A stretch of DNA of 64,000 bases, taken from positions 36,615,989 to 36,679,988 of the forward strand of contig NC_052350.1 in the NCBI RefSeq assembly GCF_009727055.1, written 5' to 3'. Both the position numbers and the translations under genes were made by a program. The notes below the pieces were generated by a model. The model saw only the letters and a program-made list of their open reading frames with translations, had not been told where the DNA came from and did no database searches. The first letter of the stretch is position 1. Each line of letters opens with the position of its first letter. Of this stretch, positions 10,234 through 37,829 are shown piece by piece. The stretch comes from Benincasa hispida (taxonomy: Eukaryota > Streptophyta > Magnoliopsida > Cucurbitales > Cucurbitaceae).

Positions 10234-11573
10234 TTTTGGTATAAATGTAAATAACAAATATTAGTTCTTTAAAGCATTATTTTCCTAAATGTAACTACAT
10301 CATGTAATTATAAGGTTCTCCTCATTTTCCTATGCAGTATCATTCTTTCATGTCTTTTTGTTCAATCTCACAGGAGTGAAATTTTAAAATTAAGGGAAAA
10401 AAAAAAAAAAAAACAACAACAACAAAAAGAAAAGTTGATCAAAATTCTAGTTTTTTTTCCTCTTTTTGAATTTGAACAAATTGGAGTAAGCTACAAATAT
10501 AAAACAATAAAGATTCTTTACAAATAATTAAAAAAGTAATTGTAGATGTAAAAAGAAACACAAATGAGACGTCAATTTTGACATAACTCGATTGGTTGAT
10601 CTTCACTTTCACGTTGTTAGGTGACAATCTTATTCAAATTCTTATATGTAATGACTCGAAAGAAATAATTTCTATTTAAAGTGTGAGTACTATTAAGAAA
10701 CCACTTAAAAATATTTTTAGTACTTAGACCAAACATCGAAAAAGTGATTTGTTAATAAGCACTTATTACTTAAAAGTGATCAAAATTCACGTTGTTAAAT
10801 TCTCTAGTTCCCGAAAAATGATGCAAGTAAGTAGTATAAACTTGGAGAAAGTGATATTGTAATTAGAATCGGAGAGAGAAATGTTCTGAATGATTGTAAT
10901 AATTTTTCACATAGTCAATTGTTTTTAGGCTGTGGTTTTTCTTCGAGATAGGAATTTTCTACGTAAATTTTTGTGTTTCCAGTTTTATTGTTTTCTTTTA
11001 ACTTCTCAATAATTTTCTATTTATTCGTGCCGTAAAAGTGAGAGGTTTTTTCCAACAATTACCTAATTCATAGCTAATTAATTAGCTATATTTATAAATT
11101 TTAAAACCTTAATGTTATATATGGAAATATTTATTTGATATAAAAAAGGAAAATGGAGCCCATCTAAGAAAAGAAAAATCATCCTTTTTGGCATGATTGA
11201 TTAATGGGATTGATGAGAATGAGAAGGAGGTTTAAAAGTAAAGGGAAAAAGGGAGAAGAGCCAATGGAGATAATGAAAGGCCTAAAGAAATTCAACTATA
11301 TTGAGAGACCATGTTGTTATGTATAAAGTATATGTACATGCATGTTACTTTGATCAAACTTCTTTATCTTATAGTAATAATTTCACCTCTTAATTTATTA
11401 TTTACACATTGCCTTGCGTGGATGCCATTATACAAATATCTTACTTTTTCATGTTCTTTTTTTAGAGTGTGGCCATAAAAGATTTGCGTCACTCTTTTTT
11501 TTTTTTTTAATTTTAGATTTTGACGTCAAAATTTTTTAATTGTTATTAAGAAAATAATAAAAAATTAAATCTT
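10232..11573. other. Intergenic, nothing recognised
   Basis: AT-rich with poly-A runs. The only frame above 60 codons (10439-10627, minus) is low-complexity and has no supporting signal. Confidence 0.4.
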
Positions 11574-11938
11574 GACTACGTGCAAGAATACTTTTATTAT
11601 TATTATTTTTTAATACAACAATAGTTTTATTATTAAACAAAGTATTTCTAGGGTTGATTTTGTTAACTATTTCGTTTTGTAATTTAATTTTTGAAGGATG
11701 TTTTCAAAATTTAATGTTATGTTCTGAAAAAAAAAAAAAAAAAAAGAGAAAGACTGACTACGTGCAAGAATACTTTTATTATTATTATTTTTTAATACAA
11801 CAATAGTTTTATTATTAAACAAAGTATTTCTAGGGTTGATTTTGTTAACTATTTCGTTTTGTAATTTAATTTTTGAAGGATGTTTTCAAAATTTAATGTT
11901 ATGTTCTGAAAAAAAAAAAAAAAAAAAAAGAGATAGAC
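11574..11938. repeat. 182-bp tandem duplication, two copies
   Basis: Copy 1 starts at 11574 and copy 2 at 11756. Both begin GACTACGTGCAAGAATAC and end in a poly-A tract followed by GAGAWAGAC. By eye the copies are identical except for the A-tract length and one base, so the event is recent. No gene is involved. Confidence 0.9.
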
Positions 11939-18589: not shown

Positions 18590-21500
18590 AAGTCAATCTA
18601 CTTCTTCACTAGCTGTTGCTAGTGCTACCTTTTCTGACTTCATCGTAGATTGGGCTAAAATAATCTGTTTCTTGGACTTCAAAGAGACAGCTACGCTTGC
18701 TATATTGAAGATATAGCCACTTGTAGCCTTTGAATCATCTGAGAGAGAGTTCCAATCAGCATCGTTGAATCCTTCCAGGAAAGAGGGAAACTTCTGATAA
18801 TGTAATCTTAGGTTCTGGGTTTTCTTCAAGTACCTCATAACCCTTTCTATAGCATTCTAATGCTCTAAGACTGCCTATGATGCTACAACGTAATCCTACA
18901 GCATAAGCTATATCAGGCTTAGTGCAGTCCAATAGGGTATCAAAGACTGTTATGATGCTCGCATACTCAGACTGATTAACAATATCACTAGTATTCTTGA
19001 ACAACTTAACACTAGGGTCATAAGAAGTACATGCTGGTTTACATTTAAAGTAATTGTATTTCTTTAGAATCTTTTCTACATAGTGAGATTGATCCCAAAG
19101 AAATTCATTTTTCAAACCTAGTCACTTTTATGCCTAAGATTACACTCGCTTCTCCTAAGTCTTTCATGTCGAAGTTTGCACTCAATGTAGATTTCACATC
19201 ATTTATGACGTGCAAGTTCAATCCAAAAATTAACAAATCATCTACATACAGATATAGGATGGTGCAAAGATTATTTTCAACCTTATAGTAGATGCATTTG
19301 TCACTTTCAATAACCTTGAAACCTTTAGATATGATTAGTTTATCAAACTTTTCATGTCACTGCTTAGGAGCTTGTTTTAGACCATAGAGATATTTATCTA
19401 CTTTACAAACCTTATTTTCTTGACTATAGACTCCAAAACCCTCAGATGTAAATCTCTTCTTCAAGTTCACTGTTTAGGAAGGAGGTCATTACATCCATAT
19501 GATGTACTACAAGGTTATAAAGGACAGCGAGAGAGAACAAAACACAGATTGAGGTAATTTTAGTGACAGAGGAGAAGATGTCAAAGAAGTCTATGTTTTC
19601 TCTTTGTCTAAATCCCTTTGCCACCAACCTAATTTTAAACTTGTCAACTATTTCATTAGGTCTAAGTTTCTTCCTTAAGATCCATTTGCACCCTATTGTC
19701 TTGCAACCTAGAGGTAGGTCTACTAAGTGCCAGGTCTTATTTGACTCAAGAGAGTTCATCTCATCGTTTATGGCTTCTTGCCATAAGTTGGCATCTACAG
19801 AGGACAAGATAGCTTTTAGGTCTTTAGGATCTTATTCTACATTATAGGTATGGAAGTCATCCCTAAAATCCTTGACGGTTCTAGTTCTTTTGCTTCTTCT
19901 AGGTTCTGGGTCGGCTTCCTCTATAGAGGTAGGGTTTCTAACTAGAGTTAGACTACTAGATCCCGAGCCCCCACTATTTCTCAATTTAAAAGGAAATCTA
20001 TCTTCAAAGAAGTTGGCATCATTTGACTCAATAATCACTTGGTTTACTAAATCATAGAACCTATAGGCTTTACTATTTATGGCATAACCTATAAAGACGC
20101 ATTCATAGGATCTTTTGGCTAGCTTTCTTCTTGTAGGGTCTACAATCCTTAAAATGGCTAGACAACCCCATGTTATAAAACATGACAGGTTTTGTTTGTT
20201 ATTCTTAAAGACTTCATAAGGTGAAGTTGTGTTTTTAGATTTTGGTATTCTATTGAGGACATAACACACGGTAAGGATGATTTCACCCCACAATAAGACG
20301 TGACTCCTAAACTAAGTAAAATACCAACTACTAGCTTAGCTAAAGTTCTATTTATCCTTTTGGCTTTTTCGTTCATTTCAGGAGAGTAAGGTGCAATCTT
20401 TTTCTGTATTATTCCATGAGAGTTAAAGAACTCATTAAAGTTGTCTGAGGTGTACTCAGTTCCCCTTTCACTACGAATTATTTTAACTTTTCTATTAAAC
20501 TGATTTTCTATTTCAGTTACAAACAAATTAAATGCATCAAAAGCATCACTTTTGTTTTTTAGAAAATATACAAAAGTAAAATCAGAGTAATCATCAATAA
20601 AAGTAATAAAATATCTTTTACTGTTCATAGTCAAGATGCCATCAAATTCACATAAATCAGAATGAATTAAATTTAGAGGTTCAAGAATCCTAAGTACAGA
20701 TTTATTCGGTGTTTTAGTAATTTTAGCCTGACTACAATACTCTCATTTATCAAATTCATTCACGAATAACTTAGGTATTATTTCTAGCCTAATCACGTTA
20801 CTAATTAATTTCTAACATGAAAATTTTTAGCATGCCAAATATTCATAGAACACAACATATACACAAAAGATTTCATTTTTATTAATGTCTAAATATAATC
20901 TGAACATTCCCTTAGTTGTATACCCTTTCCCTACGAATATATTATTTTTGGTAAGGGTATATAAATTTGTCCCTATAGTTTGAGTAAATCCAACCTTGTT
21001 GAGAAGATAGCCCGAGACTAAATTATTTCTTATCTCCAGAGTGTGCAGAACATCCTTCAATATGAGGGTCGTCCCGGAGGTAAACTTTAGCTCCACCTCG
21101 CCGTTTCAGCAATTTTCGTAGAGTGGTGATCCCCCAACAGAGTCTTCTTATCCTTAGTTTCAGTATAAGTTTTAAATAAACTAAGATCGTGACAGACATG
21201 GCATGTGACACCAGTGTCTATCCACCACCCCTCAGAACCACCGATCACATTTACTTCTATGATCATGGCAACTAACGATTCCTCTGTCAGGTTCGCCTAA
21301 CCAGTAGGACGATGCCTGTTCCTATAGTTCCTAGCCATGCGTCCAGGTTTATTACAACTTAAGCAAAGGAACTATACCTTTTTTCCTGGGGGGTTTTCTA
21401 CTTCTTTTGTTCGTTCTGGTTGCTGGAACCATGGTTCTAACCTTTCCCCTTTGTCCCCTTGAACTTTTGGACAGACTTTATCGTGAAAGAGGCGAATCTC

Positions 21501-29084: not shown

Positions 29085-31135
29085 TGATAACTTGTAGAAA
29101 TACAAGTTATTTATAATGCTTGATTTAGATATTGCAGTTGAAAGATAGGAAAGTTGCGTCAATTGTATGGAAATTGGTTAAGAAATATAATAATTATAAA
29201 TTGCCGTCAATACACCCACTAACACCATTGCGATGGTAGAAAAGAATATTTCAAGTCTGTTTTGCAGGAAATCAAGTCACCGTATGCGTTCATGGCTCAA
29301 GAGAAAAAAAGATTAACACATCTACGTCGCATTGCGCCCATCATTCAGGAATGAATAGACAATCAACGTAATGACGACGCATGCGACAATCGATCCAGAG
29401 TTGAACTTCAACCGCATGCGGTAATAAAAACAACACCGCATGCGAGCACACGATCGAAAGATGCAAATGAGCAATGCAATCACGGAGGATTTTGACACAT
29501 ATACAACTAACCGTTGTGCATTTTCGACGAACTGCTTGCATAATAGAAGGAATATTTATTCCACCATTTTCGGAATTTCTATAACAATAAAGTGGAGACC
29601 ACAAGTCAGAGAGTTAAAAATTTCATCTATAAATACCCTCAAAGAATTCACTGAAAGGATATACTTGATACGGGGGGATAATTGATACGAGGCTATTGAG
29701 AGAGAGACTGATCTGAGTGCTGATTGAAGAAGATTCGGAAAGAAAAGAGACAAGGCCAAGAGGTGAGTCTCAGGGCGAATCATTCCAAATCCTCACCATG
29801 AAGCTCTGTACCTAGATCAACTCTACCGGTTGAGCAAGCCTGAGAGGGAAGCTCATCCTTCCGTTCACTCCATCTACGCCGGCAAGCAACCTCTTCATCC
29901 AGATCGGTGTCAAGACATTGGCACTCTTCTGTACCTGTTTCTAACTCTTATTCAACAATTTTATTTCATCTTCTTAGTCTAAATCATTCACAACCATGTA
30001 TTAGATGCTTGATTTTATAATTAAATGTCATGATCATTCTCATTTCTACATTTCTGTCTATTTTTGTTCCCCCATTAATCGCTTTCTCCACTATATTTTC
30101 TTAATCCCTTGGTGATTAATATGAATTAAACAAGTAACATAATCTGTGCTAAAGAGATAAAGATGTTTAGCTAAAGCATGCTAGATGACATCTTCACCTG
30201 TGAAAGCAGAAGTGAAGATGCCATTCTGATCTGTTAAGAGAAGGTTAGAAGAATGCGTTAACTAAAGCAAGAATGCGTTAACGTAGTAAACTTGCGTTCA
30301 ATACGTTCGTCCCTGTTTCACTACAGAGATGTGGGAAATGCGGCTGATCACTGAGAGGTGTACGCCAAGAGAAAGCGGAATCACACTTATATCTTTAACG
30401 CAATTAAGGAACTTGCGATGTTTATATTAATTATCCTTTCTCTTTCTGCTTCGCACATAAGCCTTGCCACCGTATAACACGATCTTTGTATATTCTTCAC
30501 AATTAGTCTCAACCTTGGTATCTTATATCATGTAACCTGTATCTTGTATCATCATGGCTTAGGTTTATTTTATCGCACTTTACTTTTATCGCAATTTACT
30601 TTATTATCGCATTTTTATCGCTTATCTTTACTTTACTGCACAATTTACTTTACCGCATCTCTAAATACCTGTACACACAACTTTTATTAAATTGAAAAAT
30701 CCCGGGTCGCATATATCACAAATATAACGCAATTAACCTAAAACAATCCCTGTGTTCGACCTCGGATCACACCGAGAAACTTGCGGTGGAATTATACTTA
30801 GTTCAAATGCAAGGAAACTTGTGACAACGCATAGTATACTACAAGATTCTCATAAATAATGCATATCTAGAAGTAGTATCGCATAAATAAAGTGTGTCTG
30901 AATAAGCATAACACATTTCCATTCCAAGTCATTGAGTTTATGGTAACATGAACTTGTATGATCCACCATTCATCACAATCCATATGCATATTTAGAATCA
31001 CCACATCTTAAACGTTGTATGACATAAGAAGATAAATTTTATGCACAACAAGTTTATGGCATCATCGCATTTTTATGTCACAACAGTTGTCTACTATCCT
31101 ATAAAAGTAAAGCACTAGAGCATACGAGATTAGAG
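29085..31135 (+). repeat. Left (5') LTR of the LARD-type element
   Basis: About 2051 bp. It opens with a perfect hairpin (TAACTTGTA, GAAA, TACAAGTTA at 29088-29109). Three CGCATGCG palindromes lie at 29388, 29413 and 29437, followed by TATAAATA at 29628-29635. The last base shared with the right LTR is 31135. No standard primer-binding site follows. Confidence 0.85.
29628..29635 (+). promoter_or_regulatory. TATA box in left LTR
   Basis: TATAAATA within ATCTATAAATACCC. The identical context occurs at 36172-36179 in the right LTR. Confidence 0.6.
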
Positions 31136-31563
31136 GTGTGTTGCGGGAATGCATGCGCTATTGTCCGTCCTCTGCGAAGATGCATTTGCGCTGGCAAACA
31201 CATTGCATTAATCTTTTCCTTGCGTCCATTCGAATAAAATATTAAAGATAATTCTTTTCTCAAAATTGAGAAGTCTAATCGTTCCGTATTCCAAAGAAAT
31301 GATGAGTATGCAGACGAAAGGACGTTTACTCTGAAACCTCATAAAAGAGGGGAGTTCAAACGGCGGGCCTTTTGAGTGTCTCGAGGCCTACCACCACAAA
31401 AATAGCATTGGGTCCACTAAAGCCCAACCTATAAAAAAGACTTCCCCTGTCTGTGAGCACACTTTGCCTTATTTTCAATCTGAAACCCTAGCGCCCCTAC
31501 ATATCGAGCTTTCTTCTTCCCTGAAACCCTAACGTTTTCTAGCTTTCTTTCACCTCAACATCC

Positions 31564-34331
31564 ATGGCCAACCAAACTTCCCAACCTTCCGCTTCACCCT
31601 CAACACCTTTGACTGACCAACTTTCCATGCGAGAGGCAGCATTCCTTGCTGCTAGTTGCCGTCTTACTGCTCAGCCTCACACTGTTCCGAGAATCGTCGA
31701 AAAACCCCAGTGAAACCCTTTAGTCGTCAGAGCACTTCAGTTCAAAAGGGGACAAAGTATTGAAAGCACCCCACTCCCAACTCCAGCAGTCTCCATCAAA
31801 AGCGAAAAAAAGAGACGAGATGACAATGAGGTATTCGGAAACATTCTGAGTAACTTGGAGGAAGAAGGAGGACTAGCCGCGGTAGGGGTTGTAAACCAAC
31901 CACTGTCTACGGAGAAGGTGATGGTGGAGGTGACTGAGGAAGTGGCAGTGGTGGAGGAAGTGGCAGTGGTAGAGGAAGTGGTGGAAGAGGAGACAAGGAG
32001 AAGCACTCTTGCCATAAGGGATTCTGCGGAAACTACGTAAGTAGAATCCTATGAAGGACCCATCAGAGTCGTGTTAGAAGAAGTCGCGGTAGAGAAGCAA
32101 CAAGAGGTGGAAGAGGAGAAAAAGAAGAAAAAGCAGAGCAAGAGAAAGAAGGTTGGAGAAGGTGAGCCATCCCATTATCGCAAAGAGAAAAAGAATAAAG
32201 AAAAGAAGGAGGATGAAGAAGATGAGAAGGCCAAGCTAAGGAAGAAGAAAGAGAGGGGAGAAAGAAAAGAGCGCAGACGTAAGGAAAGGTGCTTGAAGAA
32301 GGAAGAAGAAAAGAAGAAGAGGGTTGCAAGCCCAGAAATGGATGAAAAATCCACCTCCATGAGGGAGAACGGGGGGAACCAGCACAACTTAGGGAGTCGG
32401 CGCAACTTGAAATAACGTAATTGGTTGTGGCCGACGAAGGCGAAGAAGGAGAATTTACCCCCCTGATACGACATCGCAAGGAGAATGCGCCGTAAGGGTC
32501 TACCATTGACCCTTTAATTTTGATCAACACATTAGAAGAAAAGGAAAGGAGGAGAAAGGAAGAGGAAGAGAGACAAGAGAAAATAGAGTGGGCGAAACTC
32601 ATCACCACAGAAGGTGATAGAAGAAGAAGACTGCATGATGAGGAGGTTCGCCGCAATAATGAGATCTCGAGGCTTGAAAAAATAAGACGGATCAAAGAGG
32701 AACAACGCCTTTTGTTGGCCTCTAAGAAGTTTGTGGAATTGTTTGAAAGAGAAATGAGAGAAGAGGAAGAAGAAGAAAAGAAAAGGAAGGCAGAAGAAGA
32801 AAGGAGAATGAGAGAAGAGAAGGAAAAGAAATGCGAAGCCAACAGGCAACGTTTAATTAAGAAGAAGGGCAAGGAACTTGCCAAGCGAGAGAAGGAGGAA
32901 CAACGCAAGGAACGAGAAAGAAAACAAAGTCAACAATCGCCTTGCGTTGGCCAAGGGAAAGGGCAAAGCGATCGCAGAAAGTAGCAAGCCCGCGTTGGCA
33001 AAGGATCCTCCATCTAGAAAGAAAGATAATGAAGACTTGTTGATGGAGATGGGTTTTTTCCCTACGCCAACGCCACTACCAGATCTGATCATGAGCGTGA
33101 TCGTGGAGCATGGTTGGGACACATTTGCCAGTGCCCAGCCATTGTTGTTCCAAAGGTAGTGCGCGACTTCTACCATGGACGACTACATGGCACCAAGGAT
33201 GTGGTGACCATAAAAGGGCGAATGGTGTCTTTCAGCGCAAGGGACATCAATAAACTATACCAAATGAAAGATAATCTGGATGCACCGGGCAATAAAATCA
33301 TTGATGATCCCACTGAAGAACAGATGGAAGATGTGCTGCGAATATTAACACAACCGGGCACTAAGTGGTCAGTTTCTCTAAAAGGCATCAAGACCCTAGC
33401 GTCCAAGACTCTGCTTCCGGAGGCACGACTTTGGGTTTATTTGGTTAAAAGGCGGCTGATCCCAACTTCCCATGACAAGAAAATTTTAAGGGATCGAGTT
33501 ATGGTTGCATATTGCATTGCGCGCGACATTCTAATCGATGTAGGCCGATTGATTGCAAGTCAAATTCGAGGCTTTGTGGGGCACATTAGAGGACAATACT
33601 TCTTTCCATGGACTAACTCAAGTCTGTGCCTGTCAATGGGTGTAGGCATTGAGGAAGAGCCCATGCACGAAGTCCACGGCCTCATCAATATCAAAATCCT
33701 GAGGTTGCTCCTCAAAGACTCCCCACATTGCCCAAAGCTACCTTTAAAGAGGCCCGGAATCGATCTTAATGCGCCGCAAGAACCTAGGCCAAAGAGACAG
33801 TGCAGAGATGATAAGGGAAAAGAAAAGGTCCAGGAATTACCATCGCAAGAGACAGAACCTTTGGACCCTTTACCCTTAGTAATCCGCCCTCCAAGCCCTC
33901 CCGCACAACCTTCTTCTTCTTCCCTTCCTGAGCACTTTATCAACCTTCTCCTTGCCCCAAATTCTCCAATCGCATATCCAGCAGCCCCATCCTCACCTTC
34001 AGCATCATCACCGCAACATTCCCTTCCACCGTCGCATATTGATGACTCACACGATTTAGGTGAAGGTACCTCTGTCCAACCCCAAAACGTTGCTGGTGAG
34101 ACATCGTAGGCACCACCCACTGTCGCGTCCTTGGCTGCTGAGTTAGCAGAAATGCGGTTCTTCTTCTCCCAACAACAACAACTCTTCGCTTAGCAACAAG
34201 CCTTCTTCAACCAGAAATTTGATGTGGTAATGGAGCAAGTCGATGATATACAACGCAATGCTGCTACGTCAAGGGAGGCGTTGATCAATATTCCGCGCAA
34301 TATTTATAAGGTCCATCGGCACCAAAGATAG
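31564..34331 (+). pseudogene. Decayed ORF with the putative plant transposon protein domain (PF20167-like)
   Basis: The frame opens at ATGGCCAACCAAACTTCC. It has a Ser/Thr/Pro-rich head, then a long Glu/Lys/Arg-rich coiled-coil stretch (32071-32960: KEEEERQEKIEWAKLI, REMREEEEEEKKRKAE). The globular domain follows at 33150-33660: VVRDFYHGRLHGTKDV, VSFSARDINKLYQM, LPEARLWVYLVKRRLIPTSH, VMVAYCIARDILIDVGRLI. These blocks match the domain found in many plant LTR-element proteins of unknown function; I infer a Gag-like or accessory role. The tail (33760-34331) is Pro/Ser-rich with a basic KRQCRDDKGKEK, then QQQQ-rich text. Stops break it at 31711, 32038, 32413, about 32491, 34107 and about 34191, with frame changes near 32420, 32930 and 33155. 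The longest intact part is 331 residues (33114-34109). Confidence 0.75.
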
Positions 34332-35638
34332 ATTCTGGAGCGTAACCATGAGTACTTTAATTTTTTACAGCATATCTTCATGGTCCCGTGGTGCCTCCGC
34401 ATCTCAGGCGGTACTTGATTTTCGAAGAGACTCCACCCGTACCGCATCAGAACCCTTCTTCAGACCCTTCTGCTCCTCAACAATAATCTTTGCATTTTTA
34501 TGTGACCATTCTATATTTTTATTCAATTCATTATTTAACGAAATTCTTTGATTCTTTGTATAGGCAACAATTTTTGTATTGCGTTATTTTTAATTATTTG
34601 TATACTTAGTGAATTTTCAATACAACTAAGTAGCAATTCTCTCTATTCACCTATGCCTTTTTCTTTATCATCCTTTGTCAATATTTGCGATGTTCTTGAT
34701 ATTTTACTGTTGCGTTATTCATTGCGCTGCCATGATGTATAATATGTTTACACTTAGAAACATTTCCCACACTTTGTAAATTCTAACTAACACTTAGTTA
34801 ATTCGTAGCTTAGCAATACTTTAACTTTTGTCCTTCAAAATTCTGCTCAAACCTTCTTTTTGAAAATTTTTCTAAGTATTTGTCTATTCTATCCAAAAAA
34901 TGCAATGAGGACCTTGTGCATCTCTAAATTTGGGGGTAGGGAAGGTCTGAGCAGATGAGAACAAGATTATGTGGTCATTAAGAAAAATGCATTCATTTTT
35001 CATTTCCAAAAAAAAAAAAAATCATATCAACTCCAATGTCAGTGCAAGGGAAAACCAAAAAATAATCCCAACTTGATAAGAGTTAGTTGTGAAAGGAACC
35101 TACTCGTAGTTGGATGTTCGCATGACACCCGTGTGAGCAAGCCAAAACGAAGGTGGGTTTCCAAGAACAACGTAATATGAAAAGAGAAAAATGCAAAAGA
35201 AAATAAAAGAATACAAGAGACAACTCCTCTGAAATTCATGAGTTAAAGTTGAATTTGGCACACAACCGTGGTTGGATGTTCGCATGACACCCGTGGGAAC
35301 AAGCCAAAACGAAGAGTGTAACTATGAACAACAGTCTCTAATAAATGACGCAAAACCGGACCACCGCATACGGACGTTTCAAGTTGTTTTGACAAAGAAG
35401 AGGTAAACATTCTTTTTAAAACTAGAAAAGCAATTTTTGAGCAGAAATTTGTAGTATAGAAGAATAAAATAGGGATTTGATACGACTTAGTAAGGATAGA
35501 AGGAAATTGCGTTGTCAAGTAATGTACCTAAGTGGAGCATTCAGAGCAATTGACGCAAAAATATAGGATAGGAATTGAGCTTTATTGCCTTAGTAGAAGA
35601 TATGCTTGAGGAAAAACATATATCTAAATTTAGGGATG
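34332..35638 (+). other. LARD-type element 3' non-coding region with two purine tracts
   Basis: AT-rich. A classic AAATTTGGGGGTAGGGAAGG tract sits at about 34927, 700 bp before the LTR; a second (AAATTTAGGGATG) touches the LTR at 35638. A 43-bp direct repeat (TTGGATGTTCGCATGACACC...) lies at 35110-35152 and 35272-35314. No gene is visible. Confidence 0.6.
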
Positions 35639-36424
35639 TGATAACTTGTAGAAATACAAGTTATTTATACTGCTTTATTTAGATATTGCGGTTAAAAGAG
35701 AGGAAAGTTGCGTCAATTGTATGGAAATTATTTAAGAAATACAATAATCGTCAATACACCCACTAACACCATTGCGATGGTAGAAAAGAATATTTCGAGT
35801 CTGTTTTGTAGGAAATCAAGTCACCGTATGTGTTCATGGCTCAAGAGAAAAAAAGATTAACACATCTACGTCGCATTACGCCCATCATTCAAGAATGAAT
35901 AGACAATCAACGCAATGACGGCGCATGCGACAATCGATCCAGAGCTGAACTTCAACCGCATGCGATAATAAAAATAATACCGCATGCGAGCACACGATCG
36001 AAAGATGCAAATTGAACAACGCAATCACGGAGGATTTTGACATGTGAACAACTAACTGTTGTGCATTTTCGACGAACTGATTGCATAACGAAGGAATATT
36101 TATTCCACCATTTTCGGAATTTCCATAACAATAAAGTGGAGACCACAAGTCAGAGAGTCAAAGCTTTCATCTATAAATACCCTCAAAGAATTCACTGAAA
36201 GGATATACTTGATACGGGGGGATAATTGATACGAGGCTATTGAGAGAGAGGCTGTTCTGAGTACTGATCGGAGAAGATCCGGGAAGAAAAGAGACAAGGT
36301 CGAGAGGTGAGTCTCAGGGCGAATCATTCCAAATCCCCACCATGAAGCTCTGTACCTAGATCAACTCTACCGGTTGAGCAAGCCTGAGAGGGAAGCTCAT
36401 CCTTCCGTTCACTCCATCTACGCC

Positions 36425-36462
36425 CTGTCTCTTATACACATCTAGATGTGTATAAGAGACAG
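36425..36462. other. Nextera mate-pair junction adapter (assembly artefact), copy 1
   Basis: CTGTCTCTTATACACATCT followed at once by its reverse complement AGATGTGTATAAGAGACAG: two Tn5 mosaic ends head to head, exactly the Nextera mate-pair circularisation junction. It replaces 35 bp present in the left LTR (29881-29915). Confidence 0.97.
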
Positions 36463-36527
36463 CATTGGTACTCTTCTGTACCGGTTTCTAACTCTTATTC
36501 ATAAATTTTATTTCATCTTCTTAGTCT

Positions 36528-36565
36528 CTGTCTCTTATACACATCTAGATGTGTATAAGAGACAG
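36528..36565. other. Nextera mate-pair junction adapter (assembly artefact), copy 2
   Basis: An identical 38-bp palindrome, 103 bp after copy 1. The 65 bp after each adapter (cattggtactc... to ...cttagtct) are also identical, so the block was duplicated in assembly or gap filling. Confidence 0.97.
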
Positions 36566-37829
36566 CATTGGTACTCTTCTGTACCGGTTTCTAACTCTTA
36601 TTCATAAATTTTATTTCATCTTCTTAGTCTAAATCATTCACAACCATGTATCAAACGCTTGATTTTATAATTAAATGTCATGATCATTCTCATTTTCACA
36701 TTTCTGTCTATTTCCGTTCCCCCATTAATCACTTTCTCCACAATGTTTTCTTAACCCCTTGGTGATTAGTATGAATTAAACAAGTAACATAATCTGTGCT
36801 AAAGAGATAAATATGTTTAGCTAAAGCATCTAGACGACATCTTCACCTGTGAGAGCAGAAGTGGAGATGCCATTCTGATCTGTCGAGAGAAGGTTAGAAG
36901 AATGCGTTAACTAAAGCAAGAAGTACTTCCAGAGATGGAAGCAACCTTGTGTTCACTACGTTCGTCCCTGTTTCACCATAGAGATGTGAGAAATGCGGCC
37001 GATCACCGAGAGGTGTACGTCAAGGGAAAGCTGAATCGTACTTATATCTTTAACGCAATTAAAGAACTTGCGATGTTTATATTAATTATCCTTTCTCTTT
37101 CTTCTTCGCACATAAGCCTTGCCATCTCATAACACGATCTTTGTATATTCCTCATAGTCAGTCTCAACCTCGGTATCTTGTATCATGTAACCTGTATCTT
37201 GTATCATCATAGCTTAGGTTTATTTTATCGCACTTTACTTTTATCGCAATTTACTTTATTATCGCATTTTTATCGCTTATCTTTACTTTACTGCACAATT
37301 TACTTTACCACATCTCAAAATACCTGTACACACAACTTTTATTAAATTGAAAAATCCTCGGTCGCATATATCACAAATACAACGCAATTAACCTAAAACA
37401 ATCCCTATGTTCGACCTCAGATCACACCGAGAAACTTGCGGTGGAATTATATTTTGTTCCAACGCAAGGAAACTTGTGACAACGCATAGTATACTACAAG
37501 ATTCTCATAAATAACGCATATCTAGAAGTAGTATCGCATAAATAAAGTGTGTCTGAATAAGCATAACACATTTCCATTCCAAGTCATTGAGTTTATGGTA
37601 ACATGAGCTTGTATGATCCACCATTCATCACAATCCATATGCATATTTAGAATCACTGCATCTTAAGTGTTGTATGACATAAGAAGATAAATTTTATGCA
37701 CAACAAGTTTATGGCATCATCGCATTTTTATGTCACAATAGTTGTCCACTATCCTATAAAAGTAAAGCACTAGAGCACATAAGATTAGAGACAATGAGAG
37801 TATCCATCACACAAGATTAACACTGAGAG

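Follow-up and report, generated by a model that had tools for sequence, protein, structure and literature searches.

The two 38-bp palindromes found in a 64,000-nucleotide stretch of the wax gourd (Benincasa hispida) reference assembly, hereafter the window, represent with a probability of about 0.97 a sequencing-adapter artefact of the assembly and not plant biology. Each palindrome, here termed J, consists of two exact 19-bp Tn5 mosaic ends placed head to head with nothing between them, and both copies (J1 and J2) are located in the right LTR of an LTR element at 29085-37790. The locus is confirmed as a technical artefact of a type already known and does not constitute a biological feature. 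The elements relevant to the analysis are as follows.

29085..31135, plus strand: left LTR, 2051 bp, with the boundaries of the initial annotation
29881..29915, plus strand: 35 bp of the left LTR without counterpart in the right LTR, present in 38/38 other genomic copies examined
35639..37790, plus strand: right LTR, 2152 bp including the artefact, with the boundaries of the initial annotation
36425..36462, no strand: J1, mate-pair junction adapter (two 19-bp Tn5 mosaic ends head to head), replacing the 35 bp present in the left LTR
36463..36527, plus strand: 65-bp LTR segment, first copy, false duplicate
36528..36565, no strand: J2, mate-pair junction adapter with the identical 65 bp on either side (X-J-X)
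36566..36630, plus strand: 65-bp LTR segment, second copy, which runs on into the rest of the right LTR

Exact mosaic ends are present in the window at 36425 (+), 36444 (-), 36528 (+), and 36547 (-), compared to a mean of 0.00 in 100 dinucleotide shuffles. The coordinates and the identity of the two palindromes, given in the initial annotation as lying 103 bp apart, are thus correct, with all four mosaic ends exact. When up to 2 mismatches were allowed, no mosaic end beyond these four was detected in the window, which likewise contains no other mosaic-end fragment of 11 or more bases and no run of N. Eight other library adapters were searched for in the window and none was found.

According to PMC4248319, the mosaic end corresponds to the Illumina oligonucleotide Tn5MErev and is a hyperactive substitute for the wild-type ends; J is composed of Tn5MErev followed by its reverse complement. 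In Nextera mate-pair libraries such a junction of 19 + 19 bases, one adapter in forward orientation and one as reverse complement, marks the point of circularisation (PMC3928519). The same source states that the two adapters are found at the fragment junction of mate-pair reads and that unclipped reads were reported to mislead scaffolding; the trimming tool NxTrim was used in the work described in PMC6298255. An identical 38-mer serves as a ligated ‘ring adapter’ for mate pairs in a protocol that employs sheared fragments and ligation without Tn5 (PMC7357533). Sequence alone cannot separate the ring adapter from the Nextera adapter. The original designation of the palindromes as a Nextera mate-pair junction therefore stands with regard to the mate-pair junction adapter, while the Nextera brand is presumptive, given that the ring-adapter protocol relies on an identical 38-mer.

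A search of the whole assembly for J, as proposed in the initial annotation, was performed on 912,946,352 bases (912.9 Mb) in 1,791 contigs, in which the window corresponds to C2:36615989-36679988, and revealed 9,991 exact 38-bp copies, whereas the reversed-pattern control yielded 0 copies in the same assembly. In contrast to the mate-pair reads described above, J is thus present here in finished sequence, at a density of approximately one per 91 kb. Single mosaic ends were found 10,766 and 10,764 times on the two strands, with 0 matches for the reversed control. Within the first 5.87 Mb of C1, 6 places carry a lone mosaic end without a full J.

The publication on the wax gourd genome (PMC6856369) describes a 913-Mb genome obtained from three paired-end and five mate-pair libraries together with PacBio data, the use of ALLPATHS-LG, PBJelly, and ALLMAPS, and the preparation of the mate-pair libraries by the Illumina standard protocol; in its main text the words ‘nextera’ and ‘adapter’ occur 0 times each. 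The 2,197 scaffolds given in this publication, of which 397 were anchored to 12 groups, correspond by arithmetic to 1,812 sequences, which deviates slightly from the 1,791 contigs searched here.

Exact copies of J are also present in assemblies of other organisms. In the prokaryote genomes of the GTDB species set, at least 120 stretches with exact J were detected, belonging to at least 19 assemblies as counted by title. Moreover, J was found in 7 stretches of viral contigs and in 5 of 72,556 plasmid records, but in none of the 20,395 records of complete E. coli genomes and in none of the 50,697 phage records. Among the matches listed, many J are found in two Enterococcus assemblies and in an Ideonella MAG.

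Viewed without this context, about ten thousand exact copies distributed over the genome would resemble a repeat family, and J could be taken for a true plant palindrome or mobile element, for example a natural relative of Tn5/IS50, the scar of a transgene, or a hitherto undescribed family of palindromic repeats. This explanation is contradicted by several lines of evidence. J is made of the engineered mosaic end and not of the wild-type end (PMC4248319); no 9-bp target duplication is present, with only 2/9 and 4/9 positions matching at the two J; the two ends abut, with no transposon body between them; and the same 38-mer occurs in the at least 19 prokaryote assemblies mentioned above. Consequently, a natural Tn5 or palindromic repeat was rejected on the basis of the engineered end, the missing target duplication, and the presence of the 38-mer in prokaryotes, and we consider a biological origin of J extremely improbable.

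The wax gourd and the prokaryote junctions share the 38-mer as well as X-J-X duplications that abut J. To quantify this signature, we compared the two flanks of each J and counted those in which left-hand sequence recurs on the right-hand side as a direct repeat scoring at least 20. The wax gourd sample comprised the 38 places with a full J (47 J) on C1 up to 5.87 Mb, the six places with lone mosaic ends being left out; these 47 junctions are not independent, as four derive from one array. A J-anchored duplication was observed at 20/47 junctions, compared to 5/190 random positions in the same stretches, a control that is somewhat lenient because its flanks, kept clear of J, in many cases fell short of the 700 bases analysed at J. 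In eleven of the 20 duplications, both edges lie no more than 2 bases from J, and the remaining 27/47 junctions are without duplication. From the other public assemblies, of which several contribute many loci each, 127 loci with 154 J were available; after removal of 7 J with flanks below 60 bases, duplications were present at 40 of the 147 junctions, 17 of them abutting both edges, as compared with 4/628 control positions. The two sets differ in the proximity of ambiguous bases: an N was found within 300 bp of J at 53/147 prokaryote and viral junctions and at 1/47 junctions in the wax gourd sample.

When the same test was applied to the window, J2 showed the 65-bp duplication with offset 0 at both edges and falls into the same class, and J1 showed no duplication. 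The repeated stretch X can be as short as 20 and 27 bp in X-J-X arrangements of other assemblies. An array at C1:2861251-2861789 (L150) contains four J with an exact spacing of 167 bp and represents a longer version of the tandem in the window. At L107, two J flank 1.3 kb of unrelated sequence, and beyond each of them, on the outer side, lies a copy of the same 564-bp stretch. A change of opposite sign to the duplications is suggested by one locus of another assembly (L014), where an acyltransferase profile ends at position 42 before J and resumes at position 145 (residue 23) beyond it. By extrapolation, about 80 profile positions thus appear to be missing at J. This locus was chosen by eye among 10 frame pairs, the comparison having covered 53 of the 120 prokaryote loci, and does not amount to a census; its left-hand match is below the Pfam cut-off (28.8 vs 32.7 bits), and the right-hand piece contains one ambiguous base, with its first 22 residues unaligned.

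Within the right LTR, the 103-bp unit at 36425-36527, composed of the 38-bp J and 65 bp of LTR sequence, recurs without mismatch at 36528-36630. In line with the initial annotation, which had reported the 65 bp after each adapter to be duplicated, the segments following J1 and J2 are identical. The left LTR contains this segment only once (29916-29980, with 4 mismatches), and a search of the window that tolerated as many as 15 mismatches revealed no further copy. As only a single copy of this right LTR is assembled, the adapter could be artefactual and the 65-bp tandem duplication nevertheless a real polymorphism of this LTR copy. However, the boundaries of the duplicate match J exactly at both edges, as is the case within 2 bases at 11/47 wax gourd junctions, and the left LTR has the 65 bp once, which renders a real polymorphism very improbable.

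The 35 bp at 29881-29915 of the left LTR, which the adapter was originally suggested to replace in the right LTR, occur once in the window, even when 9 mismatches are tolerated. This suggestion is borne out by the other genomic copies of the LTR, as 38/38 copies examined retain the 35 bp with 26 to 34 of 35 positions identical, and no mosaic end is present in the 161 bases fetched for each of them. The count was obtained with a query ending at the left edge of J1, which gave 41 genome matches, scoring being applied to the best 40 of 4,736 candidates; both LTRs of the window itself and a short additional piece next to one copy were subtracted. We relied on this query because the two other sets available, namely 30 loci obtained with a query containing the 35 bp and 41 pattern matches for the 35 bp, each including the left LTR of the window, had been selected for having the 35 bp and were not counted. 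Moreover, the window contains the only exact CATCTACGCC-J join of the whole genome. As judged from these sequence comparisons, J1 is private to this LTR copy among those examined and replaces sequence that the others keep, because all 38 retain the 35 bp without a mosaic end and the CATCTACGCC-J join is unique. The replaced 35 bp bear a slight resemblance to J, which is weak and may be due to chance, as 32/1000 shuffles score equally high.

The identity of the adapter, its recurrence throughout the genome, the X-J-X signature, and the 35 bp kept elsewhere constitute the observed basis of the artefact. From these we infer a joining step, and the following route is probable. An untrimmed J at the ends of reads or contigs would provide a shared 38-bp palindrome, and two such ends may be joined through J irrespective of their true genomic offset. 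In the case of a positive offset the genomic ends would stop short of each other, so that J would stand for the lost bases, as proposed for J1 with its 35 bp lost. Given a negative offset, the ends would overlap and the overlap would be missed, which would generate X-J-X, as proposed for the 65 bp duplicated at J2. The joining may have taken place when contigs were joined, during mate-pair scaffolding, or when gaps were patched. Gap filling with PacBio data by PBJelly is the named gap-filling step, and by itself it would not introduce J.

Alternatively, the tandem could reflect a real library molecule, in which a tagmented 65-bp fragment was circularised to 103 bp or joined into a concatemer, and J-65-J-65 reads were assembled whole. 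The length of the tandem unit, exactly 65 + 38 = 103 bp, and the array of four J with exact 167-bp spacing at L150 speak in favor of such a molecule. It would explain J2, but not the join CTACGCC-J of J1 with the loss of 35 bp. Furthermore, DNA stiffness and transposase spacing limit how short a tagmented circle can be, and X of 20 and 27 bp in other assemblies is too short for it. A small circle or concatemer is therefore unlikely as the source of the locus, and we favor joining through J; nevertheless, the X overlaps down to 20 bp and the four J at 167-bp spacing need an additional loop or repeat step.

The initial annotation also predicted consequences for the length and dating of the LTRs. 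The two LTRs align end to end, with 94.3% identity over the 1997 columns outside 36425-36565. The lengths of 2051 and 2152 bp were reproduced, but the corrected right LTR measures 2152 - 103 - 38 + 35 = 2046 bp and not 2049 bp as had been calculated. The former value equals 2051 plus a net -5 from six other LTR indels. The latter still includes one 38-bp adapter where the 35 bp should be, so that the near match of 2049 and 2051 is partly coincidence. The warning that dating by LTR divergence would be misled applies to gap columns, which change strongly from 141 with the artefact to 33 without it, and hardly to substitutions, the K2P distance being 0.0626 with and 0.0594 without the artefact.

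With regard to the wax gourd reference as a whole, it very probably contains about ten thousand false junctions, approximately 4,000 of them with false tandem duplications if the start of C1 is representative, and others with false deletions; the figure of 4,000 is extrapolated from the 20/47 junctions in the first 5.87 Mb of C1. Among the errors to which the 9,991 junctions can give rise are small deletions, false palindromic repeats, false tandem duplications of short length, and gene models that are broken or extended. One reading frame of J is open (VSYTHLDVYKRQ), so that predicted gene models may run through it; J lies within stop-to-stop frames of up to 240 residues at L147, L153, L160, L163, L172, and others. 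None of the titles listed in the literature searches reports false J junctions in the wax gourd reference, the searches not being aimed at this exact claim. The locus is worth reporting as a quality warning for this crop reference, in which J sites should not be read as biology. A single 38-base search finds all such junctions, and other assemblies can be checked rapidly for the X-J-X pattern.

Among the 100 of 197 matches listed, five places (C1:3329487, C1:66783288, C1:85163084, C3:43977596, and C4:19666281) share the ten bases GATCTACACG immediately before J, which looks as if one junction had been reused in copies of a repeat. The GATCTACACG-J joins had suggested P5 flow-cell sequence beside J. 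This candidate was rejected, as the 29-base P5 complement occurs 0 times in the genome, and the sequence at L154 continues differently.

Concerning the host element, its long direct terminal repeats were confirmed. A 5-bp target-site duplication was not found at the given boundaries, which may be off, as GTTGT precedes the left repeat and ACAAT follows the right one. With regard to gag-pol genes, 3 internal frames out of the 11 frames listed were compared with Pfam, which yielded PF20167 only, in the following frame.

33033..34106, plus strand: open frame within the element, with PF20167 (putative plant transposon protein) in 33114-34106

All seven proteins reported for this frame at E ≤ 0.001 belong to Benincasa hispida. 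Scanning the window for Rfam families and tRNAs gave no matches. Outside the element, degraded retroelement frames were detected.

19835-20742, minus strand: degraded frames of a retroelement; PF00665 (integrase core) in 20176-20742, PF25597 (retroviral polymerase SH3-like domain) in 19835-20311

In addition, a 182-bp unit at 11573-11931 of the window is repeated nearly exactly (1 mismatch in 177) without an adapter, and may represent either a real or another assembly duplication.
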